Below, in pieces: positions 6,105 through 45,854 of a stretch of 64,000 nucleotides of DNA; the stretch's first letter is position 1, and every line of letters begins with the position of its first letter. The notes under the pieces were generated by a model that made no database searches, was not told the DNA's origin, and was given only the letters and a program-made list of their open reading frames with translations. Both the position numbers and the translations under genes were made by a program. The stretch covers positions 7,422,727 to 7,486,726 of the forward strand of contig CM073327.1 of the NCBI GenBank assembly GCA_037043015.1, given 5' to 3'. The DNA comes from Bryum argenteum (taxonomy: Eukaryota > Streptophyta > Bryopsida > Bryales > Bryaceae).

Positions 6105-6357
6105 AGCAAAAGTTGAGATTTTGCTTCTTTTCAAGTTTTGTTTTTTTTGAACATATCAATGAGGTTTTAAGGCATGATCTCACCATTTGGATTTTCAATC
6201 CTACTGTCAAAGAGGGGCCTTTGTATTTGAATTTCAACATACGTCTATGCAAGTACTCAAGCATTTCGATAGGTTTTAAAGGTCGTAGGAGGGTCAAAAT
6301 TGCATAGACATGTTCCTATTTCACCCCGGAACAAGAATATGAAGAGTTTCATGTCAA
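6105..6357. repeat. Left half of the repeat that hosts the large transposon
   Basis: This matches, with divergence, sequence at 59,782-59,870 (phrase GGCATGATCTCA...TTCAATCC) and 60,590-60,680 (phrases GGTTTTA-AGGTC, GCATAGACAT, CTGAAGAG). A further relative lies at 32,560-32,800. The copy stops exactly at the transposon's terminal repeat and resumes at 23,283, so it is the pre-insertion target. Confidence 0.75.
6352..6357. repeat. Left target-site duplication TGTCAA
   Basis: Identical to 23,277-23,282, immediately outside the right terminal inverted repeat. Confidence 0.8.
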
Positions 6358-6379
6358 ACAAGGGTTTCGTTAAAAGTGC
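6358..6379 (+). repeat. Left terminal inverted repeat of the large transposon
   Basis: 22 bases, the exact reverse complement of 23255-23276. Beyond it, CATTGAAATGTG and TATTTTTTGG continue an imperfect match with the right end. Confidence 0.85.
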
Positions 6380-6992
6380 CCATTGAAATGTGCACTATTT
6401 TTTGGGATTATTTTTTAATATTTTAATCACAAATTTTGGTGTATAAAAGCACTAATATCAAATTTTGTTGGGGTCTTTTGAAATATTATTGATTGAAAAT
6501 AAAATCAAATGAAGCTATGTACTATACATATATATGTCATATTTATGATGTGCTTCGAGTTCATAATTAAGAATTTTTTGGATAAAAAATCAAATATACT
6601 GCATAATATCATTAAATTTGTGCATTTTAAATAATTGTTTGGAAGTTTTATAGAAAGTGGAACACTTTTACCTTATTGGATCGAAAAAATATCTTATTGA
6701 GGCAATTTCAAACAAAAGAAGATAAAAGAAAATAAATCATATTTACGTAATATATTCTTCAAATAAATTAACAAAAAAATATACCATGATAGTATGATAG
6801 TAAAACACAGTAATGTATAATGCACTCAAATAATAAGTTACACGGTAACACATTCTCTTACTCTCTATTATATCACTATGCTATAATATTAATATCAACC
6901 AAAGAAATATAGCCATACTAAGAGTCTAAACACATATTTATTTATTCTCTATTATATCACTATACTATAGTATTTATATAACTAAAATAAAT

Positions 6993-9900
6993 CTAACCCT
7001 CCAAAGAGTCTAGACCCAAGCCTAGAGAAAATATATCTTCGCGCACATCTGGATGTATCAATGCATTTTCTCCAAAATCGGTAGCTCCTTCTACAGTAGC
7101 ATTTACCTCAAGTTCTTCTTCATGATTGAGTCCAAGACTTTGCTCAATGTATTTGTAACTGATAGGTTCTTCTGGATTTACAGAAGAGATTGCCACACGT
7201 TTGAAAAATTTCATGTTCCCATCAGTCCACAATTCAGCACCTTTGTTCCAAAAATATACATCTTCATTTGCTTGAGCTGCTGCATCACTAGACCTCTGTT
7301 TCTTTTTCGAAGGACCACCGTCAAGAGTAGAAGCATGTACTTTCTGTTTTTTTGATAAATCGAGATTTTTCCTTACTTCGTCTTCTTTATCACCATCACT
7401 GTCCTCATCGGAATCATCTTCATCATCTTCCGCATCATCTTCATCACTCTCATCCGAATCTTCTATAGATTTCTCTTTATCCAACCAAAGTGGATTTTTA
7501 TTGGGTAGAGCTTGTCTAACTTTGTCAACGTAACGCTCTTTCCATTTCTCAAGCCATACTTCCATGTCCAAATTTGATTCCATAAGAATGAGTTGCTTAA
7601 CTGTACCACATACATTTTCAATCAAATGCGAGAATCCCTCCATCACCAGCATCCAATTTGAAGAAAAGAAATGGCTGATCAACTCTTCGACAACTGCCGG
7701 ACAATGAGCAGTTCGATTCTTTGAGCACATACTCCAACCGTTGGATGGTTCAATATAATAGGACTGAATGGTTTGTGGGGCCGTCTTGTTTTTTGCAAAA
7801 TTTTCTTCTAAACACGTATTAAGTGGATGTCGGAGAACCACAATATACTGCCCAATAGGAGAAAATTTGGCAATGCATTTTGATCCATCTTTAACTACTA
7901 AACCAGTAGTCTCTGAATGAGAACCAAAAATATATGTTCCGATGTGTACAAAATATTCGGGAACATTGTGCAAACCAATAACATTTTTAATTTGCTCCAC
8001 ATTCTCTTCAACAGGAAGCATAAAAATCACATTCCAACGTTGAACGTCTCCCATCCATGATTCAATTTTCTTCATGATTGATGTGTACTCTACCTTTGTC
8101 CAATAAGCATTTGTAGGTCCATAGCGACCCACAATGCACTTCTTCCAAAAGTACCACCATCACTTGTAAATATCGAATCGCCAATTTTGACTTCAGTAGA
8201 AAATCCCGATGCATTTGCCCCTTGATAATCAAAAAACATTTTCCAATTTCCCTCATCACTTCTAGGAATGACTTTTCCATTGCAGAAAAGTCCCAAACCG
8301 CCTTCAACAATCAGTTGATGATGATCAATCACGTTGCGCGGTATAAAATCAACATGCTTATGTTGTTTAACATGAGCTGTGTGGGGATTGATATGACACC
8401 ATCGCTTCAAAAACTCAACTCCTTTTGGAATGTCTTTAGCAAAATAATCTAATGCATCTTTTCCACCAAATTTCTCCACATCGGTTTCTAACCAATTTCT
8501 TTTCTCACCCTTCGGATCAATACGTACCGATTCCAACCACTTGAATGTATTTTGAATGCCAACTCGACGCTTTGCAACTTCGCACCAATGGGCCAATTCG
8601 GGTTCACTCTTATATCCGTCAAACCAAAGTGCTTGTTCTTTGTCCACCGAGTCTACTGTTAATTTTTTACAAAGCAATATATGTTCATTGGCTGTAAGAC
8701 CCTGTAAAGGACGTAGCCAACCAACAAACATACGCGGACGCTCTACAACTGAATCTTTCACCTTCTTCCCTTTCTTTGATGCAGTCAATCCAAGCTCTGC
8801 ATTTTTATGTTTTTTTGACTTGAATATAAAACCATTGTCATATGCATCGCACATCTCTTTCAACGCTTGCCAACTATCATCTGGAAGTGTCGCCATAACC
8901 GTATAATCACGAAATTTTTCTCTCATTTGTATAATTGAGATTTTGCCATCTCCCACCTTTGTGCTTGTAATACTCGGCATGGAACGTAAAAACTTCTTCC
9001 GGTTCTCATCTTCGGCATTTGGTCGGCCAAGACTCTCCCATAGTATTCTAGCTTTTTCAAGCATTTCTCCCGTTGTACTATGATATTTTCTCTCCGTTGT
9101 AATGTCATTTAACCTTGTTGATGAGAAAAGATACGTAATCTCGTTATCATACAACACGATAGTTGCCGGCCGTCGTGCAAATATTCTGTTATAATCTTCT
9201 TGAGAAATCTTTCGAGCCAAAAGATCATTTTTGGCCAACACATTACAAGCATGTTGTACTTGTTGTCCATCAACAGGCTCCCATGTTATACGGTTGAAAA
9301 AACATTGTCTTTTCTCTTCCATAGAAGCTCCCGGCATGCTTTCCAAACACTCAACAAATAACTTCTTAGCTCCTGCACCTTTGAATAGCTTAACATCATT
9401 GGGATTTCCTATTGGATCCTTGTAAAACATTGGTCGTAATGTAATCCATGAAGAGTCCACATTATGCCTCTCTCTCAAAGCTTTATAAATTTTTTTTGCG
9501 TTTTCAACATTTAGAATACGTTGGTTTGTAAAACCATCGGTAGGAGCTCGAACATGTTTCATATCAACAGTAAATGAGAAATCTTTCCCATAAATATACC
9601 CTCCATCAATTTCCTCTTGAGTTGGAGGATTGAAAGACTCTTCCATAGAAGAATTAGCTTGAGAGGTAACTAATCTTTTTCTTTTACCTTTTGATTGTTG
9701 AGCAATTGGAGCCTGAGTAGGAGTTTGTAAATCCTCTGCAGTCAATTCAAATCTGGTGTCTCTTTGAAAATGCGATGGTACTTGAGAACACAAAACAATT
9801 TGAAGTTGAGAATCAACAATTGCTTCACGTTCATAAGGAAACGATAACGCTCCACGCCATTCTAAATCTTTAGAAGGCTCTTCAGGTTCTTTTACAACGC

Positions 9901-10414
9901 TTTCATTTGACAAAGTGTCAGAAGCTCTTGAATGAAAGCGTTCATAAGAGTTCATATATTCAACCATATGATCTTCTTGAACCCGATTAAGACCTTGCGA
10001 TACTTGAAGCATAAATGAACGAAGAGATTTTTGAGTCTCGTGAAGGTCATTCCACCATTTTCGAGCTTTGGAAATTCCGGTTACTTTCATTCCCTCCACA
10101 TCAGAAACATCCCCAATAATATTTGCACACTTTAAAACATAAGAAGTAACATGGGAGGATTTTGAGTTGATAAAAATCTCACATGAATCACCGTCCAAAG
10201 TATATGCAGGAGATACAGTTTTCTGGACGGTTTCTCCTTTCGACCAAGCTTTAGAACACCATACTCTTTTTTCAAGCCACGGGAAGGTAGAAATCTTCAA
10301 AATCACCCGATTTTCATCACGTGTCAGAAACCATCCATAGTCTTTGAAAGCTATGGAAGGCCTCATAACCTTCTTTGGAGGGGCCTTTGAAGGCCCACCC
10401 CCTTTGTTAGGCAT
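6993..10414 (-). pseudogene. Transposon gene: ParB-like domain plus degenerate methyltransferase-like region; one frameshift
   Basis: Begins with ATG at 10414 (MPNKGGGPSK). It reads open for about 756 codons, then loses frame near 8,146, where a four-T run (coding strand) behaves as if one base short, and continues in a second frame to the stop at 6993; about 1,140 aa in all. I know no family name. Residues about 295-440 resemble ParB N-terminal domains: an FTNQRILN segment, ITLRP, VDGQQVQHA, then RRPATIVLYDN and SSTRLN. After the frameshift, the stretch AVVEELISHFF..WMLVMEGFSH..LILMESN is laid out like the C-terminal motif I region of N4/N6 DNA methyltransferases, but the FxGxG loop and DPPY are not visible. 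An Asp/Glu-rich tract (coding 7,380-7,470) follows, with basic KKKQR nearby. ParB-methyltransferase fusions are known in phages. The domain calls are inference. The frameshift may be real decay or a homopolymer sequencing error. Confidence 0.5.
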
Positions 10415-10639
10415 GAAAAGACCTTCCAAAATCCACCTGTAAATGCTTGGTAACAACAAAAACAAGAAGTTAATAAGCATGAAAATCACTAAAACAAAAT
10501 AGATTATATTCTTACCAAAAGAGTACAATAAAATTAATCTCTCGGAAACAAAATCAGAATCAAATGCAAATAAAGAAAGACTATGCCTAACCGTTACTAA
10601 CCTTGAGAACAAAAACCTACAGTTATCAATAAAACTAAA
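10415..10639. other. Upstream region of the transposon's left gene
   Basis: The minus-strand frame stays open upstream of the chosen ATG to 10612, but the extra 66 residues are hydrophobic, AT-driven and unlike the protein that follows. The ATG at 10414, after a pyrimidine-rich run, was preferred. Confidence 0.4.
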
Positions 10640-11392
10640 ACAACATTAAACACTCAAGGGTGAGGCATGTGCCCCACCTTCAAAATTCTCAATGAAGAAA
10701 TAAGATAACTAGATTTACAATTACATGCAAAGATGGTAAGACACATGCCTCACCCTTACAAACTTTGAGAGCAAAAACTAAATGTTATCAATAAAAAAAA
10801 ATAATATTATGAAACACTTAAAGGTGAGGCATGTACTTCACCCTCAAAATCTTCCATGTGAGAATTAGAGACCTTGGATTACAATAACATGCAAAGAAGG
10901 TCAGACACATGCCTCACCCTTCCAAATCTTAAGAACAAAAACCAAATGTGATCACTAAAAAGAAATAAAAATTATTATGCATTCAAGGGTGAGGCATGTG
11001 TCTTACCCTCAAAGTCTTCCATGTAGGAATGAGAGAGCTAGGATTAAACTAACATGCAAAGAAGGTGAGGTACGTGCCTCACCCGTACAAACGTTGAGAG
11101 CAAGAATCAAATGTTATCAACTAATTAAAAAATAAAATAAAATGAAGCACTCATGAGTGAGGCACATGCCTCACCCTTATAAACCTTGATGTTATGAACA
11201 ATAAAGATTAAAATTTTAGACACTCAAACTCTCAAAGATGAGGCACATGCCTCACTCTCATAAACCTTGATGTTATGAACAATAAAATTTAGAATTTTAG
11301 ACACTCAAAGGTGAGGCATGTACCTCACCCTGAAAGTCTTCTATGTGGAAGTAGACACCTAAATTACAATTACATGCAAAGAAGATGAGGCA

Positions 11393-11397
11393 CATGC
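11393..11397. repeat. 5-bp target duplication CATGC, left
   Basis: Matches 16,236-16,240. The two halves rejoin into one motif copy of the left array, GAGGCACATGC|CTCACCC. Confidence 0.8.
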
Positions 11398-12099
11398 TGT
11401 CAAACCTCATTTTTTCGTTTTGGCCCCAAGTAAGTCCGGATAGCGGTTAGTAATAGCTAATTAGAGGAAATAAAAACCCATATCCTGGCCTACCCGGGTA
11501 ATGACCGGGTAAGGTTAGCTTGGCCAGGAACCTGCCCACCCGGCAGCATCCTTAAGCTTAGTGGACAGGGTAGGGTAGCACTACTTTTTAAATTTTCTTT
11601 TTGCTTTTTATCTCCTGTTTTCGAGCCAGGATCCGGCCTAGCTGTATCCAGTCCGTCTGCTGTGGACCTAGATAACGCGTAGCAACCCTTCGCGGGTCGA
11701 CCCCTAACCGGGAAAGGGCTGCCTCAACCGGGAATGGCTCAACCGGGTATGGCCAGCCGGTCATGGCTCGGTCGGTTGTGGCCCGGCCGGTTGTCGATGA
11801 CCGGGGGAGGTACCGGCCGGGTCGGCAGCCACGAACGGGTCGGGCGGGGAAAACCCTGGCGGTGGCGCCGACAGTCCCAAGCTGACATGCCCGAGATTAA
11901 TGATGCGCCGCCAAAAGCGCGGCCACCTCCCCACTCCGCCTTTTTGTCTTTAGCGGCGCAAAGCGGCCGTTACCCCCCCTTTTTTCTCCCTCGTGTTTCG
12001 TGCGCCTTGCCGACTCTGTCGCTCCCCTATTCTCGCACGCTGCAGCTCTCCACGCGTTCGTCCGGCACGCCATAGCCAGGAGAGGAGAGATACGGAAGA

Positions 12100-14121
12100 A
12101 TGGCCGGGGACAGAGCTTCGCGTACCCGGAGTAAAATCATCCAAGCTGGCATTCCCATGGCGGAGGATGCCCGGGCGCAGTTGGTGCAAGACCTCACTCG
12201 AATGGGATGCGCGGGACTGTACTGGGTGCCCTGGAACGTGGAGGACGCGGAGATCATCGAGGAGGTCGTGTCCGGACAAGACCCACCGACTTTCGCAGAC
12301 AACCCTGTCCGGGCCAAGCCGCATTTCTGGCAGGAGGCATGTTGGAGGGCGACGTACGGCTTCCCGGACTCCTCCACATGGTACATACAGGTGCGGAATG
12401 ACCCCTCCCTCGGTGGAATGTTCCACAATCCCGCACACGAGCACGACGGATACCGGGTGGAGGACTGCGCGAATGCTCGGGAGCGACGGTTGCTCAGATT
12501 CCTGGCCCCGATCCTCAACCCGGAGAAGCCCCAGTTTGTCTCGAATAGGCTCCTGAAGGCAATCATGGAGTCTTACCTGGGCCGCAAGCAGGTAGGACGG
12601 GGCCACATCCTCGAGGAGGTAATCGCCCGGGCTTCGAAGAAGACCACCAGTGCGAAGGGCTGCCCGCTGGCTCCCTATGTGTACCACTTGTACGCGCACT
12701 ACGACTGCCTCAACCCGGGAGAGGTCACACTCACCGGGATGCTGATGGAGGGCAGGAGAGATATGTTTCCCGGGGAACAGATCCCCGAGGCAGGAGTCCC
12801 CGCTGCAGCCAGACTCCTCCCCAGGATGCCTGCCCCCGGAGTAGGGGCACTTCTTCCACCGCCACCACCATCTCCACCAGGGCCGCAAGGACCGCAGAGG
12901 ACAGGACCAACTGCCCCCGAGCCAGGGGATGGAGGAACATCAGGGCCGGGTTCCGGAGGAGCTGCCATACCCATGGCGGGGAGAGTCATTCCACCCCGGC
13001 CGACCACCACCCACAGGATGGCAACCCGGAGTATAGCAGAACCAGGGCCCAGCCAGCCAATTCCGGCTTTAACCGGAGAAGAGGAGGACTCTCTGATAGC
13101 CAGGGCGACCCCGTTAGCCCCCTCGATTGACTCGCCACCCCCCTTGCAGCCCGTACAGGGAAATGACAGTGACGGAGAGGAGCTCCCTGTCCTGCGTCGG
13201 AGGAAGTCAGGATGGGTTCTCCGGTTTGTGGAGCCCGATTCCTCATTACCAGGAGAACCGGAGGTAGCGGCCGCACCACGACCAGGGGATGTTGAGGCCG
13301 AGGGTACCTCACAGCTAGTGGATCCCATTCCGGAGGTGCGGACCCCGGCGAGAGAAGGACCGGTGGACGAGGTTCCCATTGAGGCCCTTCTCCTGGCCGA
13401 CAGTCCTGTCGAGGTCCCCGGGCACACTACCGCCGCAGGAGGAGTAGAGTGGGGGGAGCCAAAATACGCGAAGAAGAAGAAGGCAGACCTTCCCCCCGAC
13501 AGCCCTCGACCCCGAGTCCGGAGGAAGCTTACCAGGCCCAGGGAAGATGCTTCATCACCTCCTGTTGATTCTCCTGTCACCCGGGTCGAACTTCTTGAGC
13601 CGGCTGCCAGGGCGATTCCGGCCGCACAGCGAGCCGCAACGTCAGGAGACCGGACCGCCAGGAGGAAGGGGAAGAAGGCGATGGAGGTGGACTCGGAGTC
13701 GGAAGACGAGGGTGAGACTGGTCACCACTCCCCCCTCCCCGCTACCCGGGAACAGAGGTTAGCAGCCCCATCCACCGCCGCCCACCTACCCGCGTGGGAT
13801 GATTTCACCCCGCGAAGGCCGGAATATGATCCGAACCTTCCCTTGCCTCCTTTCCGGATTACGGAGGACAACCCCCTTCAACCCATCGCCCATGCATTAC
13901 AGTTGTGCACACAGGAGCACCTTCAGATGCACAAGGCGCTGCGGGGGATAGCCGTAGCGCTCCGGACCAACCAGGTTGAGCGGTACCCGGACATGGTTCG
14001 GGAGTTAGTACGGGATGCTGCAGAAGCCCGGACTAGTGTCAACGAAGGGTCCCTCATCATTCTACGCCAGGACCGGGAGATTAAGCGGTTGGAGGAGGAG
14101 CTGTCCAAACAGCAAGGATAA
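12100..14121 (+). CDS. Retroelement ORF1, putative Gag-like or unknown protein (673 aa)
   Basis: ATG at 12100 (MAGDRASRTRSK). Residues 1-210 look globular and are rich in Trp and Tyr (GLYWVPWNVED, HFWQEACWRATYGF, WYIQVRND). Residues about 230-560 are low-complexity Pro/Gly/Glu/Arg. The last 60 residues form a likely coiled coil ending EIKRLEEELSKQQG. No zinc knuckle, protease or polymerase motif is visible. Position and layout resemble a gag-type ORF of a non-autonomous LTR element, but I do not recognise the family. The minus strand is also open here because of high GC; coding direction is chosen from the folded-looking N-terminus and the consistent order with ORF2. Confidence 0.5.
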   Translation: MAGDRASRTRSKIIQAGIPMAEDARAQLVQDLTRMGCAGLYWVPWNVEDAEIIEEVVSGQDPPTFADNPVRAKPHFWQEACWRATYGFPDSSTWYIQVRNDPSLGGMFHNPAHEHDGYRVEDCANARERRLLRFLAPILNPEKPQFVSNRLLKAIMESYLGRKQVGRGHILEEVIARASKKTTSAKGCPLAPYVYHLYAHYDCLNPGEVTLTGMLMEGRRDMFPGEQIPEAGVPAAARLLPRMPAPGVGALLPPPPPSPPGPQGPQRTGPTAPEPGDGGTSGPGSGGAAIPMAGRVIPPRPTTTHRMATRSIAEPGPSQPIPALTGEEEDSLIARATPLAPSIDSPPPLQPVQGNDSDGEELPVLRRRKSGWVLRFVEPDSSLPGEPEVAAAPRPGDVEAEGTSQLVDPIPEVRTPAREGPVDEVPIEALLLADSPVEVPGHTTAAGGVEWGEPKYAKKKKADLPPDSPRPRVRRKLTRPREDASSPPVDSPVTRVELLEPAARAIPAAQRAATSGDRTARRKGKKAMEVDSESEDEGETGHHSPLPATREQRLAAPSTAAHLPAWDDFTPRRPEYDPNLPLPPFRITEDNPLQPIAHALQLCTQEHLQMHKALRGIAVALRTNQVERYPDMVRELVRDAAEARTSVNEGSLIILRQDREIKRLEEELSKQQG

Positions 14122-14154
14122 GCGCGACAGCATCTTTTCGGCCTACGGAAGCTC

Positions 14155-15078
14155 ATGTATGCTCTAGGAGAGGCCCAGCTCAAATCCCAGCTATTCGATG
14201 CCCAGTTTCAGGCATCCGGGTCGGACCTTCCAACTCGAATGGCGCCTTTTATGAAGAAGGCCACCGAGCGGATGGAAGGGGCCTTACAGGAGATGAGGGG
14301 CCTCATTCGTGAGATGACCAGGGCTTTTCTGGGAGAGGCACCCCCACCGGAGATAGTCGAGACTCCTCCTATCCGGGTCATACCCGAGACCGCTGAGGCT
14401 GCCCTGGCAGAAGAGGAAGAGCCAGCCGACCCCGTAGCGATGGAGGAGCCAATCGCTCCACCTGTCCGCAGCCCAGAAAAGGTTCCGACCGGGACGGGTA
14501 CCCTGCCACTCCTTCCCGAGGATAACCGAGGAGAGACAGAGACGACCCGGGGAGGGATACACCCGGAGGAGGAGGTTTCCCGGATAGAGGCGGACAGCGA
14601 TAGGGTGAGGGCTTCCTCTCCAGTTCCCCCCGACCGGGTAGTGGACCCCATGGACGAGAGCCCTACTCCCGCCCCGGAGGCCACGATCCAACCAGGGGAG
14701 GCAGTAAGGACCGACCTCCGCCCACCCGGACAGGGAGCAGAGTTGCCCCAGTCCCTCCGAGGGCCGGAGGCAACTCCCCTCTCAGGATCCCCTGGTCCCG
14801 ATGGTTCTCCCGGGCTAACCCATACTTCGGAGACTACACTCCTCGTCCCCGAAGAACTGGTGGAGGTCCCGGAAACCGGGGAGGTATTTCCTGAGGTCTC
14901 AGCCCCTGCCCCTTCCGGAGATACCGAGATTGTGGACGGAGGAGGACCCTTTCCGACACATGGCGATGCGGGAGAGGAGGAGGAGATCACATCCCAACCC
15001 GAGCCGAAGGCGCGGGTGGACGGCCCCTCCGCGACTACCGAGGCTCTGCAGTCGACGAAGCGGAAAAGGGACGAATAG
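14155..15078 (+). CDS. Retroelement ORF2, unknown Pro/Glu-rich protein (307 aa)
   Basis: ATG at 14155, 33 bases after the ORF1 stop and in a different frame. Residues 1-70 are predicted helical (AQLKSQLFDAQFQ, ERMEGALQEMRGLIREM). The rest is acidic, Pro/Glu-rich and low-complexity, ending STKRKRDE, a possible nuclear-localisation patch. It resembles the C-terminal half of ORF1 in composition, so the two could be halves of one longer polyprotein interrupted by a stop. No enzymatic motif is visible. Confidence 0.4.
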   Translation: MYALGEAQLKSQLFDAQFQASGSDLPTRMAPFMKKATERMEGALQEMRGLIREMTRAFLGEAPPPEIVETPPIRVIPETAEAALAEEEEPADPVAMEEPIAPPVRSPEKVPTGTGTLPLLPEDNRGETETTRGGIHPEEEVSRIEADSDRVRASSPVPPDRVVDPMDESPTPAPEATIQPGEAVRTDLRPPGQGAELPQSLRGPEATPLSGSPGPDGSPGLTHTSETTLLVPEELVEVPETGEVFPEVSAPAPSGDTEIVDGGGPFPTHGDAGEEEEITSQPEPKARVDGPSATTEALQSTKRKRDE

Positions 15079-16235
15079 GGCCGGGATAATCGTTAGTAGA
15101 TAGCCCTGACCCCGGTTGCTTTGGATCTAGTGGTATTAATGCGGGAAGGGGGAATGACGGCATTAGACTGACAGAGGATAGAATTAGGAAGATTCCCTGG
15201 CGCGGGATTTTGTCCTCTTCTGGGATGCCAAGGAGGATCCGCTACTTAGCCGAGGGAAGGATACTCCCTCGGGGTCTTTTTTGTGCCTTTTGCAATACCC
15301 TAATGCAGTTGCAAGTACGCCCTTTTTTTCCATTCTCCTTGTGTGTGTAAGTGTGTGCGTGGGTGTTAGGTTGCGTAATCTTTGCAGATTCCTGTCTTGT
15401 ATGCTGTGCTGGGAGTGTTGCGGAGTCCATAAGGCCCTTGCTGTCCGGGCAAGAGAGAACGGTTCCGTCCTGGAACGGAGAGTAGTAAGGAGGGTAGAGA
15501 AGCTGGCAGGAGAGGAGTGCGGCCAACGAACGGCACCTCTTACTTAGGGCACAATCTAGTATGTCCGTGCAGCATCCAGGACTACGGCGGCCAGGAAGGG
15601 ACTCCTGCCGCTTAACCGACTCCCGAGACCGCCCTCGGTTGAGTCCCCCTGGATTGCTGAAGTCCGGGTAGGCCGGTTGGTGCATAGGTAATAGCGGTGA
15701 ACTCCGGGTCAACTGCACCACCCCTAGTTCAGTAACCCGGGATCTACTAACCCGGGTAGCGAGTTGTGATAACCGGACCATAGGAGAACCGGATACCAAC
15801 CTTTGTGACATGCGCGTGGGCCTAGAGTCCGGGCGTAGAGGAAGGTGTAAGGGAAGTTCCTAACAGGGTAAGGAGAGAGAGAGAGTCGGTGACCTTTCCG
15901 GCCACGTTAATCAACGGGAAAAGTGGTCTAATCCCCCACTTATCTAAATCCGGGAAAAAATTTCTGAGGTGAATACAGAGGCTAAGCTAAACCATAAAAA
16001 ACCACACCCCCTCCCCTTTCCTGTTCGGGTAAGCTTTTCTAGGACAGGATACAAGGTACAGGGGTGACCTGAGACTACCCGGATAGCGCAAATCCGGGTT
16101 GGCTAACTGGTGGAAATTGTTGTCCTTGCACTTCACAGGATCTCCGTGGACGAATACTCGGGTTCTTGTTTGGGAAACCTCTTTTACCACGAAAAAGGGT
16201 TATCCGGGCACGAATCAGGAAAGCACGTTACGACA

Positions 16236-16240
16236 CATGC
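16236..16240. repeat. 5-bp target duplication CATGC, right
   Basis: Direct repeat of 11,393-11,397. The left array resumes immediately with the remaining half-site CTCACCC. Confidence 0.8.
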
Positions 16241-17894
16241 CTCACCCTTTCAAATCTTGAAAACAAAACCAAAGCTTATCAAAAAAAAATAAACACAAAC
16301 ATTAAACATTCAAAGGTGAAGCATGTGCCTCATGGTCAAAACCTTTCATGTGAGAATTAGATATCTAAGATTACAATTACATGAATCAAAGGTGAGGCAC
16401 ATGCCTCACCCTTACAAACCTTGAGAGCAAGAAGCAAATGTTATCAACTAATTGAAAAAAATGAAATGAAGCACTCATGGGTGAGGCACATGCCTCACCT
16501 CATAAACCTTGATGTTATGAACAATAAAAATAAAAGTTTTAGACACTAAAGGGTGAGGCACATGCTTCACCCTCATAAACCTTGTTGTTAGGAACAATAA
16601 AATTTAGAATTTTAGACACTCAAATGTGAGGCATATGCCTCACTCTTATAAACCTTGATTTTATGAACAATAAAATTTAAAATTTGAGACACTAAAAAGT
16701 GAGGCACATGCCTCACCCTCATAAACCTTGATATTATGAACAATAAAAATTAAAGTTTTAGACACTAAAAGGTGAGGCACATGCCTCACCCTTATAAACC
16801 TTGATTTTATGAACAATAAAATTTAAAATTTCAGACATTCAAAGGTGAGACACATGCCCCACCCTCATAAACCTTCATGTTATGAACAATAAAGTTTAGA
16901 ATTTTAGACACTCAAGGGTCAGACACATGCCCCACCCTCATAAACCTTGATGTTATGAACAATAAGGTTTAGAGTTTTAGACACTAAAAGGTGAGGCACA
17001 TGCCTCACCCTTATAAACCTTGATTTTATGAACAATAAAATTTAAAATTTCAGACATTCAAAGGTGAGACACATGCCCTACCCTCATAAACCTTGATGTT
17101 ATGAACAATAAAGTTTAGAATTTTAGACACTCAAGGGTCAGACACATGCCTCACCCTCATAAACCTTGATGTTATAAACAATAAAATTTTAGATTTTAAA
17201 CACTGAAAGGTCGGGCATGTGCCTCACCCTGAAAGTCTTCTATGTGAAAGTAGACATCTAGATAACAATTTCATGGAAAGATGGTGAGGCACATGCCTCA
17301 CCTTTTCAAGTCTTGAGAGCCTTTAATTTGTAGTTGGTAATGATAATAAAGTTTAATCAAGTTTGAAATTCATTTTTTCTGAGAATGACAGAAATTGCAA
17401 TAAAATTTGTAGCAAGTATGTGAAGTAAGATTTGCAACTTATATTTGATATATTTTTATAATAAATTGTTATGAGAGGTTTGTGATATTATGAAGATTCA
17501 TAATCAGATTGGAAGTCAAGTAGTGAGGCATGTGCCATACTCAAAAAAATGTGCAAAAACATAAAAAATCAGATTCTAAGAGTGAGAGTAAGTAGAACAT
17601 AAACATCTGAATTTACAAATAAGGTGTGAATTTAGTTACACACATTTCAGAATGTAGATGTATAATTTGTGTCGACATTGAAGTAATGTAACACATTACT
17701 CACGAATCCAAAAAATCTCTAATCAAGAAACAGAGTTTTATACATACAAAGACATGCAGTTTGAATTTAGATTTGAAATTGTGATGTGCACATGATAACA
17801 ATTAGATGATTTTCTAGCTGAATACTAAATGCATCTGAAAACACTAAAAATTCAGATCTAGATCTAAATGAAATCTGAAAAGCTTGAAGCTTAC

Positions 17895-18020
17895 CCTAAT
17901 CTGAGTGCTGAAACGATAAGTACAGCAGTGAGTGTGTTGAAAACTTGTGGTGAGAAGTACTACAAATAAGGTTGCTAGTAGGCTGAAATTTGTATTTGAT
18001 GAAGCTCGAAGTGCTGAGAT
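17895..18020 (-). other. Possible 5' UTR exon of the transposon's left gene
   Basis: On the minus strand a pyrimidine-rich acceptor (CTTCTTCCTACAG) precedes 18020 and a donor (AGG|GTAAGC) follows 17895, defining a 126-nt exon without a good start codon. If used, the left array would lie inside an intron of the left gene. Only splice-site consensus supports this. Confidence 0.3.
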
Positions 18021-18299
18021 CTGTAGGAAGAAGATCAAAGGTTTAGTATTCGCAAACGAGATGATCTACATGTATAAATGACGGAGTTCAGTTTGTAAGT
18101 TGTACCAAGGCGAAGGCGAAGGCGTCGACGTTGTGAATCAACACAATATAAGATCCTCTACTTTGCACGCAAAGGAATGTGATGTTCGGAGGAACAAAGC
18201 GCAGCAGGAACAAAGAGGCGGCAGAAAACTAAGGAGGCGGCGGCGAAAACCTAAGACGGCAACGTAGCAGAGAAAAGAAGCGACGAAGAGGAGAAAAAG

Positions 18300-18480
18300 G
18301 TCGGACGAAGCGAAAACAACCTAAACCCTAGGCGGTCGTTTTAAGTTTTTTAAATTTTGATCAATTCATTTTCTTTTAGATCTGAAAGGCTATATAGCTC
18401 TAACTTATTCAGATTGAAGAATTTTAACTTGAAATTTTTTGGGAGCGCCGGTGGCACTATATATATAGCATTTTCAATTT
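18300..18480. promoter_or_regulatory. Probable divergent promoter of the transposon
   Basis: A symmetrical TATA block CTATATATATAG sits near 18,459-18,470. On its minus-strand side is GC-richer, CT-rich sequence containing AAACCCTA (a telo-box often found in plant leaders, near 18,320) and GCCGCC words, typical of a plant 5' UTR. The plus-strand gene starts 1.1 kb to the right beyond the right array. The call rests on composition and position only. Confidence 0.4.
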
Positions 18481-18689
18481 TTTGGAAATAAAATAGAATT
18501 TCTATAAATATGACATTTAATATGGAAAATAAAATTATGGAGACATCCTCATGATATAATGTGCTCTTGTATGTGTTGTGAAATTAAAATTTACATTATT
18601 ATGCATGTTTCTCCATACATGGTTTAAAATTTTGAATTTTTGAGGTCATCCGACATCACACAACCTTAAAAAATTTTACTTTAAGAAGG

Positions 18690-19585
18690 TGACGTATATG
18701 CTACATTATAACAATGATAATTTGTTTTACTAAATGGTTGGGCATGTGCAACATCAATTCCTCTACTCAGTTGTTCATAATTATACATTAAGAATTTCCT
18801 TGTGCTTAAACAAGGTGCCGCAAATGATACACCTTTAGTGAAGGGTAAGGCAAATGCCACACCCTTTACGAGAAGAATTACCTCTGTTAAAATTAATTTC
18901 ACTTGTATTTATAGGAGTTAAGATACGTTCTACACCATGTTCTACCCCCTACTCATGTTATGAATTTGAATGCTATGCTTAAGAGTAAAACACATGCTAC
19001 ACCTCATATGACATTCATTAACTTCGTTAAAATTCAAGAGGTGAGGCACATGCCACACTCCTCCTCACAATATTTTCTTTGTTAGAATCTTAAGAGGTGA
19101 CGCACATGCCACACTCCTCCTCACAATATTTTCTTTGTTAGAATCTTAAGAGGTGAGGCACATGCCACACTCCTCCTCACACTATTTTCTTTGTTAGAAT
19201 CTTAAGAAGTGAGGCACATGCCACACCCCTCTGGAGAATATTTTCTCTTGCTAGAATCTCAAAGGGTGAGGGACATGCCACACCACTCCCGACAATATTT
19301 GTGCGTGGTAGAATCTCAAGAGGTGAGGCACATGCGACATCCCTCCCGACAATATTTTCCTAGCTAGAATCTCCAGGGTGGGAAACATGCCACACCCCTC
19401 CCGAGAATATTTTTCCATGCTACAATCTCAAAGGGTGAAGCACATACCACACCCCTCCCGACAATATTTGTGCGTGGTAGAATCTCAAAGGGTGAGGCAC
19501 ATGCCACTCCCTTCCCGACAATATTTGTGCTTCCTAGAATTTCAGGAGGTGAGGCACATGCCACACCCACCAATCTTATGATGTT
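18690..19585. repeat. Right array of the related motif, about 13 copies
   Basis: Copies of GGTGAGGCACATGCCACACC occur about every 58 bp, clearest from 19,030 to 19,575; earlier copies are more degraded. The left half-site matches the left array, while the right half-site is consistently CCACAC instead of CCTCAC, so this array is a diverged sister rather than a continuation. Spacer phrases differ too (ACAATATTTTCTTTGTTAGA, CTCCCGACAATATTTGTGC). It ends about 35 bp before the ATG of the transposase unit. Confidence 0.8.
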
Positions 19586-19618
19586 TTTTGTTTTTTGTTA
19601 TGACTAGGGATTCAAGTT

Positions 19619-20377
19619 ATGGAAGGTGGACTTCAAAATGGATCACCCTCATTTGTTCGACATCGCAAATATAGAAATTCCGAGATCCAATTCAATAACA
19701 TGCTTCATTCTCAAAACTCAAGGTATGTTTTTATTCATGACATTCATGAACAACAAGTTGGAAGTGGACTGCTACAAGATATGGTTGTTGGTGATACACT
19801 ACATGGTAAACCACTATCACCTGACGATGCAGTGATTTTCGTACAACAAATTATAATTCCTGAAACACGAGTTCATGAGTTGAATTTGGTATATATGAGT
19901 GATTGTCTTCACAAGTTTATTCGATGGCCTAGATCCCAAATCCAAGAATTTCAAGTATCAACAACTCCTGATTTCAATTTGGGGCCTACTAGTGTGGACT
20001 TTACTCCATCACCGCTTATGAGCCAAATGTCAAATTCCTCTACTGATGAGCGTTCATCTTTTAGACATACTATGGAAGGATTACCTGAATCTCATCCTCG
20101 CCGTCCATATATTCATAGAACTCGACCAAATAGAAGTCCTATGGGCCCCCGCATCCTTGGTGTTTCTAGAGCTAATAAAGTTACATTAGCTGCAATACAT
20201 GAAGCAAAAGTGAAAAAGCCATGTTCTAAAGAATGTCTTCAAAATATAGACGAGCATGATCTTTTATCTTTGCGGTATCAAGCGTTGGGTATGACAAAGT
20301 ATAAAGATAGAGCTTGTTGGATTCTCACAACTCTTCGAGGATTTAGAATTTCATCTCCAAGTGCAAATGAAATTTGA
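19619..20377 (+). CDS. Transposase unit, N-terminal ORF (252 aa)
   Basis: ATG at 19619 directly follows the right array. The segment DAVIFVQQI...LHKFIRWPRSQI resembles a domain often seen in plant transposon-associated proteins (DUF8039-like, low certainty). The C-terminus, KKPCSKECLQNIDEHDL...LGMTKYKDRACWILTTLRG, reads like the start of the DUF7869-type transposase region, whose continuation is in the next ORF one frame away. The two ORFs overlap by 17 bases with a one-base frame change between about 20,340 and 20,375. That means a small indel, a sequencing error or, less likely, programmed frameshifting. Confidence 0.6.
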   Translation: MEGGLQNGSPSFVRHRKYRNSEIQFNNMLHSQNSRYVFIHDIHEQQVGSGLLQDMVVGDTLHGKPLSPDDAVIFVQQIIIPETRVHELNLVYMSDCLHKFIRWPRSQIQEFQVSTTPDFNLGPTSVDFTPSPLMSQMSNSSTDERSSFRHTMEGLPESHPRRPYIHRTRPNRSPMGPRILGVSRANKVTLAAIHEAKVKKPCSKECLQNIDEHDLLSLRYQALGMTKYKDRACWILTTLRGFRISSPSANEI

Positions 20378-22397
20378 AGCAAGAATAGTTGGAAAAAAAG
20401 TATGTATTGCATGTTTTGCAAATGCAGTAGGATACTCACGGCGGAGGTTGAATTCTATTTTATCACAAATACGAGAAGAAGATGTAGTAGATGCTATTCA
20501 TGGAAATTGCGGAAGGAGGAAAGAAGTTACTCATATTAGTATGGCCCGAGCACATTTTGAGTCGTACATCAAGTTTTTTGGAGAGCCTCAACCCCATCGC
20601 CAAGTACGCCGAAAATCTGATGGACAAAATGTTGAAGTGATTTGCTTACCTATGAATGTCCGTCAATATGAAGTATGGACTGCGGTAAATAATGCATTGG
20701 ATCGCATGGGTGAGGCTAACAATGGATTGTCAACTTTCAAAAAAATGTGGAAACATGAATTTACCAATGTACATATTCCAAGTGAATCAAGATTTTCAAA
20801 GTGCCAAACATGTTGGGAGTACAAAGGGAGTATAAAGGCAATGCCTAATGAACGGATGAAACAAGCCATCCAACAATCATATGATCTTCATATTGATTTG
20901 ACTATGGAAGAACGAAAAGATTACAGCCGAGCACGTCAAGCAGCAATTGAGAGCCCTGATGAAATTATGACTCTCATAATTGATGGTATGGACCAAAATA
21001 CTACAATTGTCCCTAGATTTAAGCAAGCAGTAAAAGGCATTGAGTCTCGATTCGTAAAGACTCATTTGTGTGGGGTTCTCGTCCATGGTATTGGTTTGTA
21101 TTGCCATATATGGGTGGATTCTCATCATAAGCATGTTAGCAACCAAGTGGTCACATCCATTATGAAAGTTCTATGTGATGTCAAGAATCGGCGAGGACGA
21201 CTTCCCCCTACACTTCGCATTCAAGCGGATAATTGTGGGAGAGAAAACAAGAATGTATACATTCTTGGAGTATGTGCAACACTAGTAGCCCTTGGATTTT
21301 TTAAAGAGATCCAACTATCATTTTTGATAGTAGGTCATACCCATGAAGACATTGATCAACGTTTCAGCTATATATCTTCAGCTTTAAAGCGGCAAGATAT
21401 TGATTCCTTGGAGGAAATGTTGCAAATTATTCGTGAACGTCCTACTTTTACTGAACCGTTCATTCATGCAGAGCATCTTGGACATATTAGGGATTGGAAG
21501 AGTTTTATTACACCCTATTTGCGAGAAGATGCATTTGTCGGCATTAGTAAACCCCATCATTATAGATTTTATATGCAAAATAGCAAGCCACATGTACAGT
21601 ACAAGGATTATGCAAGGTCTTCATCGTGGATTCCTGAAAATGGACATTTATGTCTTCAAGAAGTTCCGGATGTTCGCCTGCAAATTCCATTAGCATATAT
21701 TGCTGAGCCCGACGATAGGGAATTACGAGCTTTGAATGAATTTATTCTACTCAAAGAACGTCATATTGCAAGGTTTATGGACGTTGAGAAAAATCTTTGT
21801 GTTATTGATGCAACCAACAGATTTATCTCTTATATGAAAGATTTTCCTTTGAGAGATGACTCTGAAGCTCTTTCTTTGCCATTCTGGCCTCTCTTGGAGA
21901 ATATGTCAACTATATATTGTGAGGTACCACAAGAAGTACAACCATTGGATTCTCAAGTTATGAATGTTTTACAATCTCTTCCTCCTGTGATGGAGACATC
22001 TTATTTTGGACCTCGTTCGGAAATGCCTAGGGGACATCGCATTCGAGGTTCTTCAAATAATACACGAGGGCGAGGGCAAGGTAGAGGAAGAGAAGAAAGT
22101 GTAAGGCAAGTCCATGAACCAATACATATGGAGCTAACACTTCAACAAGAAGGAAATCAAGGTCGTGAACGAGGAGGAAGAATCCGAGGGGGACACATAA
22201 GAGGACGAAGTCATCGCCAAGGCCATTCAACTACATCCAATGATGTGGCATATGATCGGTTCTTGGCATTTGATCCGCATCAAGATGTGAAGGTAGGAAT
22301 GGTCATAGCAATGAAAACCGATGATGACGATCAACACCTAGGTATTCCTTTTTTTCTAGCAAAAGTGCTCTCTTTAAGTCAACAAGCTTGTTATTGA
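20361..22397 (+). CDS. Transposase unit, catalytic ORF (DUF7869-like, DDE-like core)
   Basis: The frame is open from a GTG at 20361, which is probably not the true start; the natural N-terminus is the preceding ORF. Counting from there, a CxxC zinc motif lies at 148-151 (KCQTCWEY). The likely catalytic acidic residues are D208 (LIIDGMDQ), D290 (IQADNCGRENKN) and E329/D330/D332 (VGHTHEDIDQRFS), spaced like an RNase H-fold DDE transposase. Residues about 555-620 are Arg/Gly-rich (RGRGQGRGREE, GGRIRGGHIRGR), suited to nucleic-acid binding. The stop at 22397 comes from a local rearrangement; downstream coding continues in another frame to 22734. The DUF7869 label is from memory of its D-N-ENKN and GHTHEDIDQ signatures. 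Confidence 0.65.
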   Translation: MQMKFEARIVGKKVCIACFANAVGYSRRRLNSILSQIREEDVVDAIHGNCGRRKEVTHISMARAHFESYIKFFGEPQPHRQVRRKSDGQNVEVICLPMNVRQYEVWTAVNNALDRMGEANNGLSTFKKMWKHEFTNVHIPSESRFSKCQTCWEYKGSIKAMPNERMKQAIQQSYDLHIDLTMEERKDYSRARQAAIESPDEIMTLIIDGMDQNTTIVPRFKQAVKGIESRFVKTHLCGVLVHGIGLYCHIWVDSHHKHVSNQVVTSIMKVLCDVKNRRGRLPPTLRIQADNCGRENKNVYILGVCATLVALGFFKEIQLSFLIVGHTHEDIDQRFSYISSALKRQDIDSLEEMLQIIRERPTFTEPFIHAEHLGHIRDWKSFITPYLREDAFVGISKPHHYRFYMQNSKPHVQYKDYARSSSWIPENGHLCLQEVPDVRLQIPLAYIAEPDDRELRALNEFILLKERHIARFMDVEKNLCVIDATNRFISYMKDFPLRDDSEALSLPFWPLLENMSTIYCEVPQEVQPLDSQVMNVLQSLPPVMETSYFGPRSEMPRGHRIRGSSNNTRGRGQGRGREESVRQVHEPIHMELTLQQEGNQGRERGGRIRGGHIRGRSHRQGHSTTSNDVAYDRFLAFDPHQDVKVGMVIAMKTDDDDQHLGIPFFLAKVLSLSQQACY

Positions 22398-22466
22398 CTT
22401 AAACGTTTGCAATACCATCGAAAGTGCTCTCTTTAAGTCAACAACAACCGATGGTATTGCAAACGT
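22362..22466 (+). repeat. Template-switch-like insertion disrupting the transposase
   Basis: AAAGTGCTCTCTTTAAGTCA occurs twice (22362 and 22421). Between the copies lie two inverted pieces: TTGACTTAAA, complementary to TTTAAGTCAA, and CGTTTGCAATACCATCG, complementary to 22449-22465. The net gain of about 59 bp brings in the stop at 22397. This pattern fits replication template switching or snap-back repair. Confidence 0.75.
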
Positions 22467-22734
22467 TCTATGGTATCAACCAAGAATGCCAAGAGGATTA
22501 CAAGATGAAGTAGGGATGTTTCACAATCGATATACGAACTGCATACACCGTGCTTGGGAACCCTCACGAGAACCACATGGTTGTGTTCCAATTGATTCTA
22601 TTTTTATTGCTTGGGAGAATACCGTCAGCACCCAAAATTTGATTACTGTTTTGGGTATTAGAACTGAAAAAGAGTTAAAGATTCCATGTGGTGAAAAATT
22701 TCATTTCGAATATCACCTCAGCCTCTTAGAATAG
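22449..22734 (+). pseudogene. Displaced C-terminal segment of the transposase
   Basis: A frame with DGIANVLWYQPRM, GMFHNRYTNC, HRAWEPSREPHG and PIDSIFIAWENT continues past the rearrangement and stops at 22734. The WY-P...WEP...D-I--W pattern looks like the folded C-terminal domain of the same protein. It is no longer in frame with the catalytic ORF. Confidence 0.55.
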
Positions 22735-23254
22735 TTTTTCTATATTTGTTGTATATTTACCTTATATTTGAGAATTTATAAAATGAAATATTGATATATC
22801 ATTTTGTTAAGTTCTCATGTGAATGGATCTTTTTTCATGACTAACAATTATTGTCATTATGTGTGTATCTAAATTCAAAACTTCAACAATTTTGTGCATA
22901 ATTGAACTTGCATGTACATACCTCATTTTTTTCTTCTTGTAAGTGAAATACATATATTTCAATTACTATATATAATTATATATTTATATTTATGATCATA
23001 GATGGACTCTTGGTAAAAGGAGCAATAAAGAGTTATAAGAAAATCCTAGCAATGTTTATATTATTTTTATCAACTCAAACTTTTCATCAATTGCAATTGT
23101 AATTTCATCAATAACAAAGCATAAGAAACTTAAAATGTATCCTTGTTTTTAATTTTAATTTTTCTAACTAGTAGGATAGTTATAAGTGGTGAATTTTTTG
23201 TTGAAATTGATAGGTTTCCAAAAAAACCTTATGTGCACTTTTACACATTGAATT
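22735..23254. other. AT-rich 3' region of the transposon
   Basis: About 500 bp of AT-rich non-coding sequence between the transposase stop and the right terminal repeat. No further gene or subterminal repeat array was seen. Confidence 0.5.
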
Positions 23255-23276
23255 GCACTTTTAACGAAACCCTTGT
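23255..23276 (-). repeat. Right terminal inverted repeat of the large transposon
   Basis: The exact reverse complement of 6358-6379. The inner flank repeats AAAAGTGC a second time (minus strand) before the match with the left end fades. Confidence 0.85.
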
Positions 23277-23282
23277 TGTCAA
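23277..23282. repeat. Right target-site duplication TGTCAA
   Basis: Direct repeat of 6352-6357. Confidence 0.8.
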
Positions 23283-37129: not shown

Positions 37130-39001
37130 CTATCTCCGATACCTGTATCTCTTGAAATTGAAATATACATGCAAAATCCCCCGCTCGAAAGTGCACTTGA
37201 AGCCCTTCTTATGGGAGTACTCCCACTCCTTATTCACAATCCGAAATGCAATGTCTTCATAAGGCGGGCCAGCATGGAAGCGAATGAGACACGTTTCCCC
37301 GGTGCCTCCATCTCTCTCAATGAAATACGTCGGTGCCTTGATCTTATCCACAAGATCAGGATAGAAAATATTGAACTTGTAGCCTTGCACAATCTTAGGG
37401 GGAGGGTTATCATGATCATAGTGAGTCTGATTGTACTTGTTCCATTCATAACCTGTATGCACTCTGTTGAAGTACTTCGGTTTCCGAGGTCTATACTTGT
37501 CGTGCCACCAATAGACCTGAGACTCGAGGTTTACCTCCGATCCGGGACCAAGCATAGTGTCACCATCCTCCATTCCTCCCATGGATTTCATCACCGAGGC
37601 ACGCTCAAGAGGTGTGAGCTCAAGCGGGTCTTCTTCTGTTGTGGCAGCTGCTGCCTCCTGTAAGCGCCGCTGCTGCTCATCCAAAACCTCAGCTCTCTTC
37701 CTCTCCAGCTCTGCCTTGTCTGCTTCGGGATCCAAGACCTCGGAACCATCCACTTCTTGCGTCGGCTCGGGGGAATAGTTGCCTGCGTCTTCTTCCTCTT
37801 CCTCTTGCACAGGCTCTGGTGAAACTGCTACCTCCTCTTCCTCCTCCACTTCCCAGTCACTTGCAACATCTCGCTCACTTTCAACCTTCTCAATGTCTCG
37901 GTCACTTTCAACTTTCTCTTCGCTGGGAAGCCGCTCACCGATGTATTCGATTCGACTCAAGTGCTTGCGGTGAAGCTCAGCATGAATCTCCCTGAGGCGA
38001 GCTTTAGCCTTGTAGATGTGGAGACGTTTCAAAACTGCTTCCCAATACTCCACAATCTGCGCCTCACCAGTGCGCATCTTGGACTCTGTATGCTCCTGTA
38101 AATTGTCCAGGTACGCAACGCTCTGACCTTGAAACATTTCATGGACTGCATCATCGACTCCACGCAAGCCTACATCATCTGCGGGAAGTGGATCCTCTCC
38201 ACGCAGCCTTGCTTTATCAAGTGCATCTCTCTTCCGTGTCTGCGCAATCTCCCAGTCGCAAACAATCATCATGGACTCCCAGAAGCTAATGTGCGTATTC
38301 GTGGCGCGGTCCAACTCAAGATGCATCTTGATATCTTGACGAAGCTCCTCCATCTCCTTCACTGTCAAGCCTTTGAATATCTTGTATGGCTCGCTCATGT
38401 CCGGGTCAAAATCCTCAGAGATGTTCAAGTTCCTGGATAGGACGTCAATAGGCTTGGCTCGCCCCTCCCGCAATCTAATTTCGCTGCGCACCTTGCTCTG
38501 TTCGAAATGAAACTCCTCTTCCTTCTTCTGCCAGTCTTGGTACTCAGCTCGCGCGCGTTCGCGAGCCAGGAGCGCCATTTCCTCCTCGTGCTGCGCTTGG
38601 TTTATCGCGCGCTCTTCTCTCCGTTTCTTGACTTTCTCGATTTCCGCCATGCGCTCCCGCTGCCGCTTCTTCTCGGATTTCACACTCATCTCTGATGGTG
38701 TTAACCCGTGCCCGACGTCCCGCTCGATCTTCTTCCTCCATACAAATCCCTCGGTGAGGTTGCTGTCTCCGAAGGGGTTGCTGTCGTTAGAGTATCCTGA
38801 GACAGAGGAGGTTTTCAATCTCTTGGCCACTTTCACTGCCTTCTTGTGCGCTTTCCTGGCTTCGTACTCCCGCAGCTCCTCTTCCGTGAACTTTGGAGAA
38901 TCGCTCCTGTCCGAGCCATCGTCACTGTCGTCGGAATCCGTATCTCTTCGCTTCCGCCTGTGACTCCTTTCCTTCCTCTTCTTCTCCTTTCGATGTCCCA
39001 T
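37130..39001 (-). CDS. CACTIN: Cactin, spliceosome-associated protein (intronless)
   Basis: Single uninterrupted ORF; ATG at 39001 (MGHRKEKKRKERSHRRKRRD) gives 623 aa and starts with the usual basic, Ser/Asp-containing N-terminus. The frame is open 20 codons further upstream, but that extension is unlike the family. A long charged helix (KKRQRERMAEIEKVKKRREE) leads into the mid domain (about 170-370, EPYKIFKGLTVKEMEELRQD). An acidic linker (about 380-460) and the C-terminal cactin domain (about 500-623: YWWHDKYRPRKPKYFNRVHT, GYEWNKYNQTHYDHDNPPPK) follow, with the hallmark end FKRYRYRR. Family knowledge: cactin is a nuclear factor acting with the late spliceosome, and is required for plant embryogenesis. 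The complete conserved C-terminus argues for a functional gene. Confidence 0.95.
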   Translation of the reverse strand: MGHRKEKKRKERSHRRKRRDTDSDDSDDGSDRSDSPKFTEEELREYEARKAHKKAVKVAKRLKTSSVSGYSNDSNPFGDSNLTEGFVWRKKIERDVGHGLTPSEMSVKSEKKRQRERMAEIEKVKKRREERAINQAQHEEEMALLARERARAEYQDWQKKEEEFHFEQSKVRSEIRLREGRAKPIDVLSRNLNISEDFDPDMSEPYKIFKGLTVKEMEELRQDIKMHLELDRATNTHISFWESMMIVCDWEIAQTRKRDALDKARLRGEDPLPADDVGLRGVDDAVHEMFQGQSVAYLDNLQEHTESKMRTGEAQIVEYWEAVLKRLHIYKAKARLREIHAELHRKHLSRIEYIGERLPSEEKVESDRDIEKVESERDVASDWEVEEEEEVAVSPEPVQEEEEEDAGNYSPEPTQEVDGSEVLDPEADKAELERKRAEVLDEQQRRLQEAAAATTEEDPLELTPLERASVMKSMGGMEDGDTMLGPGSEVNLESQVYWWHDKYRPRKPKYFNRVHTGYEWNKYNQTHYDHDNPPPKIVQGYKFNIFYPDLVDKIKAPTYFIERDGGTGETCLIRFHAGPPYEDIAFRIVNKEWEYSHKKGFKCTFERGILHVYFNFKRYRYRR

Positions 39002-39479
39002 ACTGAGAAAATGGTCGATCAAAGCGCAGAAAAAATTACGCACCTGCAAAAGCTCCGACACCTCTATTCAGCTCCATGGAACTAAGCTGTCGGGCACTGA
39101 ACCCTAATTCACGAAACGTTATGAGCTTGCGACAAGTTTCGATCCTTCGTCGCGGAAAGGGAAACCTTGCGAAAATGATAGGAAGAAGAAACTGTGTTGA
39201 GAAAAATCTAATGCCTTTGAGCCTTTCAGTTACCAACAACCAACTAGGTGATGTGTACTAAAATGTACAAATTTAGGTGAATTCTACTTCTACAAAGGTA
39301 TAATAGTGTTTAGTAAAACTAAGTCGAGCTTTTGTAAACTAGAACAAATACTAATGTAGGAAAATTGGTGATGGATTTGCACAAATTACAACTTGTATAT
39401 GATAGTACTTTTTATGAGCTGGAATTTCATGCAAAAGATAGTCCTTCTTACATTAATATGTACAAGAAAATTAAAAGAA
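39002..39479. other. Cactin upstream region and AT-rich spacer
   Basis: The first 200 bp include the probable promoter and leader of cactin on the minus strand. The rest is AT-rich without recognisable features. Confidence 0.4.
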
Positions 39480-45300: not shown

Positions 45301-45854
45301 ATGATTCTATAATTTTTTTTTCAGATTACCTCAACCAATAACCTTAAAAACTACTAGAAACAATATCCCCGTTCCTGATTTCACTTTACATTATTGTTCA
45401 ACCATGTGAAGTGAATTTATTTCTTTTGCATGGAAAGTGTCGGACTTGGAGTACATGCCTGGAAGTGGGTATCCGAGAAAGGGGACGAAAAGCTCAACCC
45501 TGGACTCCATTTGGTAGCTGGCTGCTCCCCCCAATCATATGAAGTGGGAAGCCAGGCACATACATGCAAGCTGAACATCCCAGCCGTTGTTTGTTGGTCC
45601 CTCCTCAGGCAGGCTCACTGCTGTCGAGTAGCTTGCTTCTTCAATGTTGTCAAGCTCTCCAGCTCCAGTGAGGCGGTGAAGGAGGGTACCCTAATCAAGA
45701 ACCAACCACCGCTCGCTCGCCCGCTGGATCTATCTCTCGCTCGTGCGTGCATGCACGGTGGTGCCAAGACCCCTTTCCTTTCTCCTTCTCTAAGGTAAAG
45801 GACGGACGGACGGACGGCAGCAATCTGTCTGTGCATGTGCAGGAGCAGAGAACG
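42387..45854. other. AT-rich gene desert, then UXS upstream region
   Basis: Over 3 kb of AT-rich DNA with only short spurious frames. A 45-bp tandem duplication (TTCGAATCATACTC...TTTTGCAAGC) lies at about 42,778-42,862. From 45,430 composition becomes GC-richer and includes pyrimidine-rich sequence and CGGACGGACGGACGG, likely the promoter and 5' UTR of UXS. The frame upstream of the UXS ATG is open to 45747, but those residues are unlike the family. Confidence 0.5.

Follow-up and report, generated by a model that had tools for sequence, protein, structure and literature searches.

A Two-Gene DUF7869 Transposon Family with Four-Base Target-Site Duplications in Bryum argenteum

The element and its boundaries

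A stretch of 64,000 nucleotides (nt) from Bryum argenteum (Eukaryota; Streptophyta; Bryopsida; Bryales; Bryaceae; NCBI GenBank assembly GCA_037043015.1, contig CM073327.1, positions 7,422,727 to 7,486,726 of the forward strand), here called the window and numbered from its first letter, holds a very large DNA transposon that carries a DUF7869 transposase gene, a second gene on the opposite strand, two internal repeat arrays, and a nested insertion. The element measures 16,921 bp, or 12,078 bp once the nested insertion is subtracted together with its 5-bp duplication. A first-pass annotation, made from the sequence alone, had described a two-gene element of this kind, of about 12 kb without the insertion, and both points were borne out. 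Also upheld was its placement within a dispersed repeat: a search with the joined flanks returned 40 matches (the best 40 of 1264 candidates), 2 of which were the locus itself; the remaining 38, at 75 to 79% identity, all crossed the junction, so that the element sits inside such a repeat.

Direct inspection and a repeat search agreed on exact inverted ends. Their annotated location was right to within one base, but their length was 23 bp rather than 22 bp. A repeat search and a comparison of 16 elements placed the left terminal inverted repeat, AACAAGGGTTTCGTTAAAAGTGC, at 6357 to 6379 on the plus strand and the right one at 23255 to 23277 on the minus strand. As the annotation had expected, further copies in the host genome share the 22-bp end: at up to 3 mismatches it had 76 matches in 258.8 Mb, versus 2 for the reversed control. 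Ends facing each other within 17 kb were paired by eye, giving the window copy and 15 others, 2.5 to 16.9 kb in size, so that the test of duplication length used 32 of the 76 ends. An A precedes the 22-bp end and a T follows the opposite end in all 16 elements; because these bases are fixed, they were counted as part of a 23-bp end. The 23-bp ends begin with AACA on both sides in 14 elements, the exceptions having AATA (C5) or AAAA (C1f) at one end.

Outside the 23-bp ends, 12 of the 16 elements had an exact 4-bp direct repeat, versus 1 of 240 mismatched pairings of left and right flanks. The window element is flanked by GTCA (6353 to 6356 and 23278 to 23281), and the other exact duplications were ATAC, AATA, ATTT, TAAG, TTGT, AAAT, CTTA, CAGC, ATTG, CTAA, and CTAC. 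The remaining four were inexact, with one mismatch each in C1e and C8b, two in C1b, whose left and right flanks are reverse complements, and three in C11. Direct repeats of 5 to 10 bp and exact 3-bp duplications were each found in none of the 16. The family thus makes 4-bp target duplications of varied sequence. One locus, C1:30952025-30968007, holds two adjoining copies in which the flanks of the smaller are mutually reverse-complementary and its right flank is that of the larger, which suggests an inverted duplication or an aberrant transposition.

The hexamer TGTCAA flanks both 22-bp ends, as annotated, and had been read there as a 6-bp target duplication. Because the adjoining A and T belong to the 23-bp end, this hexamer is T + GTCA + A by chance. 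The duplication length in other copies had been named beforehand as the test of the 6-bp reading; it proved to be 4 bp, in none of the 16 elements did the flanks beyond the 23-bp end agree over 5 bases or more, and the 6-bp claim fails. With it falls the case for placing the lineage apart from known superfamilies, which had been built on that length. A lineage with true 6-bp duplications does exist in IS3EU/GingerRoot, DDE DNA transposons of which GingerRoot was found in a clubmoss (PMC10045372). The same source gives their ends as TA..TA, or occasionally TG..CA in GingerRoot, versus AACA..TGTT here, and no integrase domain was found in the Pfam scan. With duplication length and ends both differing, we consider these families excluded, at a residual probability close to nil.

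Two further memberships were rejected. CACTA/EnSpm elements have CACTA ends and make a 3-bp duplication, which the AACA ends and the lack of any exact 3-bp repeat in the 16 elements do not fit. Kolobok, piggyBac, and Sola3 are TTAA specific, and TTAA was not among the twelve exact duplications.

The transposase gene

The transposase is encoded on the plus strand by an N-terminal frame (19604 to 20377), recognized as an open frame and by homologue alignment, and a main frame (20295 to 22397) with the DUF7869 domain at residues 251 to 440. The main frame matched DUF7869 (PF25273) at 186.3 bits (E = 5.7e-55; Pfam gathering score, 26 bits), confirming the DUF7869 transposase of the first-pass annotation. 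Neither element protein had a Pfam match to any other known transposon family, integrase included.

The transposase is predicted to fold around an RNase H (DDE/D) core, its model resembling retroviral integrase and Tc1-mariner relatives in fold only, a comparison that speaks to the families present in the structure lists. When the family profile was run against Protein Data Bank (PDB) sequences, no match fell below an E value of 0.23. In the model, the motif DGMDQ (residues 230 to 234; 20982 to 20996, plus strand) ends the first core strand and offers D230 or D233 as the candidate first catalytic Asp; Asp312 (21228 to 21230, plus strand), after the fourth core strand, is the candidate second; and HTHEDID (residues 348 to 354; 21336 to 21356, plus strand), at the start of the last core helix, supplies E351, D352, or D354 as the candidate third acid.

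The host genome yielded at least 151 DUF7869 matches (from the best 150 of 1805 candidates), many over profile positions 6 to 190 and many over 53 to 192 only; in 14 control genomes there were none. Animal and fern proteins with the domain (best 120 of 468) covered 37 to 83% of the query at 26 to 39% identity, those named coming from sea urchin, mussel, amphioxus, sponge, Ceratopteris, and others and being annotated as uncharacterized, hypothetical, or DUF7869 proteins. Among viral contigs, 44 stretches matched by pattern, and tblastn found no relative among them. Literature searches found no paper that names DUF7869 and none for the motif HTHED together with transposase.

The second gene and its fixed arrangement

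On the minus strand, two overlapping frames (8090 to 10645 and 6993 to 8159) make up the second gene (6993 to 10645), its frame broken near 8.13 kb. They are read as one gene because the homologue P0121 aligns across both; in the sister copy C2, P0121 residues 1 to 769 align in one stretch with one TGA inside. Profile searches of the second protein against Pfam and PDB returned only weak matches, most of them to acidic low-complexity stretches and none over the Pfam cutoff, and its predicted structure (pLDDT, 31) was unusable. A ParB-like reading of its DGQH stretch found no support in these searches and was dropped.

Within the host genome, 60 second-gene matches were obtained from 57 scored (the best 57 of 445 candidates), with identity as low as 27 to 32% in about twenty. 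The matches merged into 45 loci, 29 of which have a listed DUF7869 match no more than 25 kb away (the list used for pairing being the best 150 of 1805 candidates), versus a mean of 1.3 and a maximum of 6 in 1000 random placements, in which the extent of C10, a contig without second-gene loci, was assumed. In orientation, 28 of the 45 loci are head-to-head with the listed DUF7869 match, 1 is on the same strand, and none is tail-to-tail; the other 16 have no listed DUF7869 match. This fixed head-to-head arrangement is the most interesting result of the analysis.

The second gene might instead be cargo, serving silencing escape or host interaction outside the transposition machinery, as would suit a protein without a known domain, for which a search across 5.8 billion proteins, one that required shared short words, gave only 2 homologues (E ≤ 0.001) of the 851-residue frame. 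That it has been kept to 27 to 32% identity at about twenty loci, and in one orientation at 28 of the 29 loci with a listed partner, is no less expected of a required partner, and we think cargo the less likely reading.

Near-palindrome arrays and short relatives

Between the two genes lie two arrays. The first is split by the nested insertion into a left part (10609 to 11397), with repeats that carry the near-palindrome TGAGGCACATGCCTCA, and a right part (16236 to 17316) of about ten 73-bp repeats that likewise carry it; the second (18991 to 19583) consists of 57-bp repeats, mostly with TGAGGCACATGCCACA. At up to 2 mismatches and on both strands, the window element has 30 sites for TGAGGCACATGCCTCA, mostly 56 to 92 bp apart, and the remaining 47,079 nt of the window have none. 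Genome-wide, at up to 1 mismatch, the near-palindrome had 222 matches (some sites being counted on both strands), versus 2 for the reversed control.

The near-palindromes mark most copies of the family. In the short elements C1c, C1d, C1e, C7b, C8b, and C11 and the long elements C5 and C6, sites lie 150 to 300 bp from one end and 206 to 677 bp from the other; in C1f they lie 417 and 228 bp from the ends; and C1b, C7c, and C8a have none. In other families, two fetched stretches beside the second gene contained tandem repeats, of period 120 and period 58, with a related near-palindrome.

Seven short elements (2.5 to 4.1 kb) share with the large element a single alignment of 82 to 148 bp (blastn, pieces of at least 80 bp); exact 4-bp duplications flank 4 of the 7, and all 7 carry near-palindromes. 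They are likely nonautonomous families with other interiors. The elements C5 (15.7 kb) and C6 (11.2 kb) have the same ends and no tblastn match (E = 1e-5) to the transposase or the second gene.

State of the window copy, its sisters, and the nested insertion

The window copy is structurally complete and no longer codes for intact proteins. Besides the break in the second gene, its transposase has a frame change near 20.36 kb and is disrupted again near 22.39 kb by a locally templated insertion. The latter, about 55 to 59 bp long (22386 to 22444, plus strand) and comprising a 24-bp direct repeat and an inverted copy, ends the main frame ahead of the C-terminal part (22429 to 22728) and is missing from the C2 copy. 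The juxtaposition of direct repeat and inverted copy at 22362 to 22444 suggests an origin by template switching during repair.

The first-pass annotation had proposed that intact sisters may exist in the same genome. Sisters were found, with C2 (11,471 bp) the example: its aligned bases, gaps omitted, are 98.0 to 98.3% identical to the window copy, from which we infer that the family moved fairly recently. Intact ones were not: of the 15 other elements, 6 (C1a, C1b, C2, C4, C7c, and C8a) matched at least one of the two genes, and none of these 6 has both genes whole, in a sample drawn from 32 of the 76 ends. The transposase is short of about 560 bp of internal sequence in C2 and of a middle part in C1a, each copy also having breaks in the second gene; C4 retains a second-gene remnant and a transposase match that stops at the middle; C7c has several frame breaks; and C8a and C1b have no transposase match.

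The nested insertion of the first-pass annotation was confirmed. It measures 4,838 bp (11398 to 16235), has TG...CA ends and a 5-bp duplication, CATGC, at 11393 to 11397 and 16236 to 16240, and is missing from C2. Its target lay inside one near-palindrome. It has about 60% G+C and long open frames on both strands, two of which were scanned without a Pfam match, and comparison of its first and last 1.5 kb showed no repeated ends.

Elsewhere in the window, Pfam matches mark a Cactin gene (37133 to 39067), an NAD-dependent epimerase of the nucleotide-sugar type (45672 to 47159), and a C2-domain protein fragment (56214 to 57071). Among the best 120 of 651 matches to Cactin, the nearest with a name were from Marchantia paleacea (72%), M. 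polymorpha (71%), and Calypogeia (71%), with seed plants and a fern little behind at 65 to 72% and matches without a name at up to 86%, which points to a land plant, perhaps a bryophyte.

Other end-families in the genome

Ends were also retrieved for six further two-gene loci, and five had AACA-starting ends with an exact 4-bp repeat. Three of the five share the end AACACTYGATTCRTTAAAAGTGC, with duplications TTAT, CTTT, and ATGG, and two share an end beginning AACACARTATTGAGG, with duplications ATAT and TTAT; the sixth locus (C3, near 1.86 Mb) had no clean ends. Offsets of 0 to 39 were scanned here, and the chosen offset was that with AACA at both ends; four of the five loci show 4- or 5-bp chance repeats at other offsets too, the ATGG locus alone being without them.

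An AACAC-type end pattern had 37 genome matches (3 of them from the first end-family), versus 0 for the control. Among them are ten facing pairs, 11.5 to 20.3 kb long and including the three elements that supplied the pattern; all ten enclose a second-gene match, and eight also enclose a listed DUF7869 match.

Placement and proposed mechanism

Taken together, these features very probably identify the element as a cut-and-paste DNA transposon from a large DUF7869 lineage with two genes, arrays, and AACA ends. In such a mechanism, the transposase would bind the 23-bp inverted ends; two Asp residues and a third acid, in HTHEDID, would cut the element out; and the freed element would be joined to a target whose two strands are attacked 4 bp apart. 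The near-palindromes may be bound by the second protein or else by the transposase, with the arrays acting as assembly or control sites, a role that subterminal repeats play in CACTA elements. Short relatives reduced to the ends and near-palindromes would be mobilized in trans. CACTA elements likewise have two genes, TnpA and TnpD, and internal repeats that are likely binding sites. PIF/Harbinger elements encode ORF1 and a transposase (PMC2836001). Both systems resemble the present element in pairing a transposase with a second element protein, and both differ from it in ends and duplication length.

The four-base duplications point to the Sola superfamily, a likeness of described features. 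Sola elements have 4-bp duplications, a DDD transposase, ends of 11 to 1124 bp, and sizes mostly of 2 to 9 kb, some exceeding 15 kb (PMC10741241). Within those ranges fall the 4-bp duplications (exact in 12 of 16 elements and in 5 of 6 loci of the other end-families), the 23-bp ends, and the sizes of 16,921 or 12,078 bp, as does the DDD/E transposase with an RNase H core that fold and conserved acids predict. Published accounts add that Sola is present in the moss Physcomitrella and uncommon in flowering plants (PMC10741241, PMC9033089), with Capsicum also named (PMC9033089); that Sola2 has AT-rich 4-bp duplications and 12- to 21-bp ends (PMC3627910); and that a giant Sola-1 occurs in a brown alga (PMC12477816). 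A plain Sola member (Sola1 or Sola2), with the second gene and arrays perhaps already in Repbase entries, is accordingly the somewhat favored placement. Against it, a literature search found no paper linking DUF7869 to Sola, and the conserved head-to-head second gene and near-palindrome arrays go unmentioned in the excerpted Sola accounts. Tentatively, and as the less likely case, the DUF7869 lineage could be an independent two-component superfamily of early land plants, apart from Sola, in which a DUF7869 transposase stands head-to-head with an orphan partner of ~1,200 residues, family-specific near-palindrome arrays serve as assembly sites, ends are AACA..TGTT, and duplications are 4 bp.

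One copy taken alone can mislead, as here, where chance bases made a 4-bp duplication look like one of 6 bp. DUF7869 is entered in Pfam without an assigned function; the boundaries of the element, its duplications, and the predicted core tie the domain to DNA transposition, and a plant genome holding many copies provides a setting for that link. The fixed partnership with an orphan gene offers a testable two-protein transposition system with defined DNA sites.

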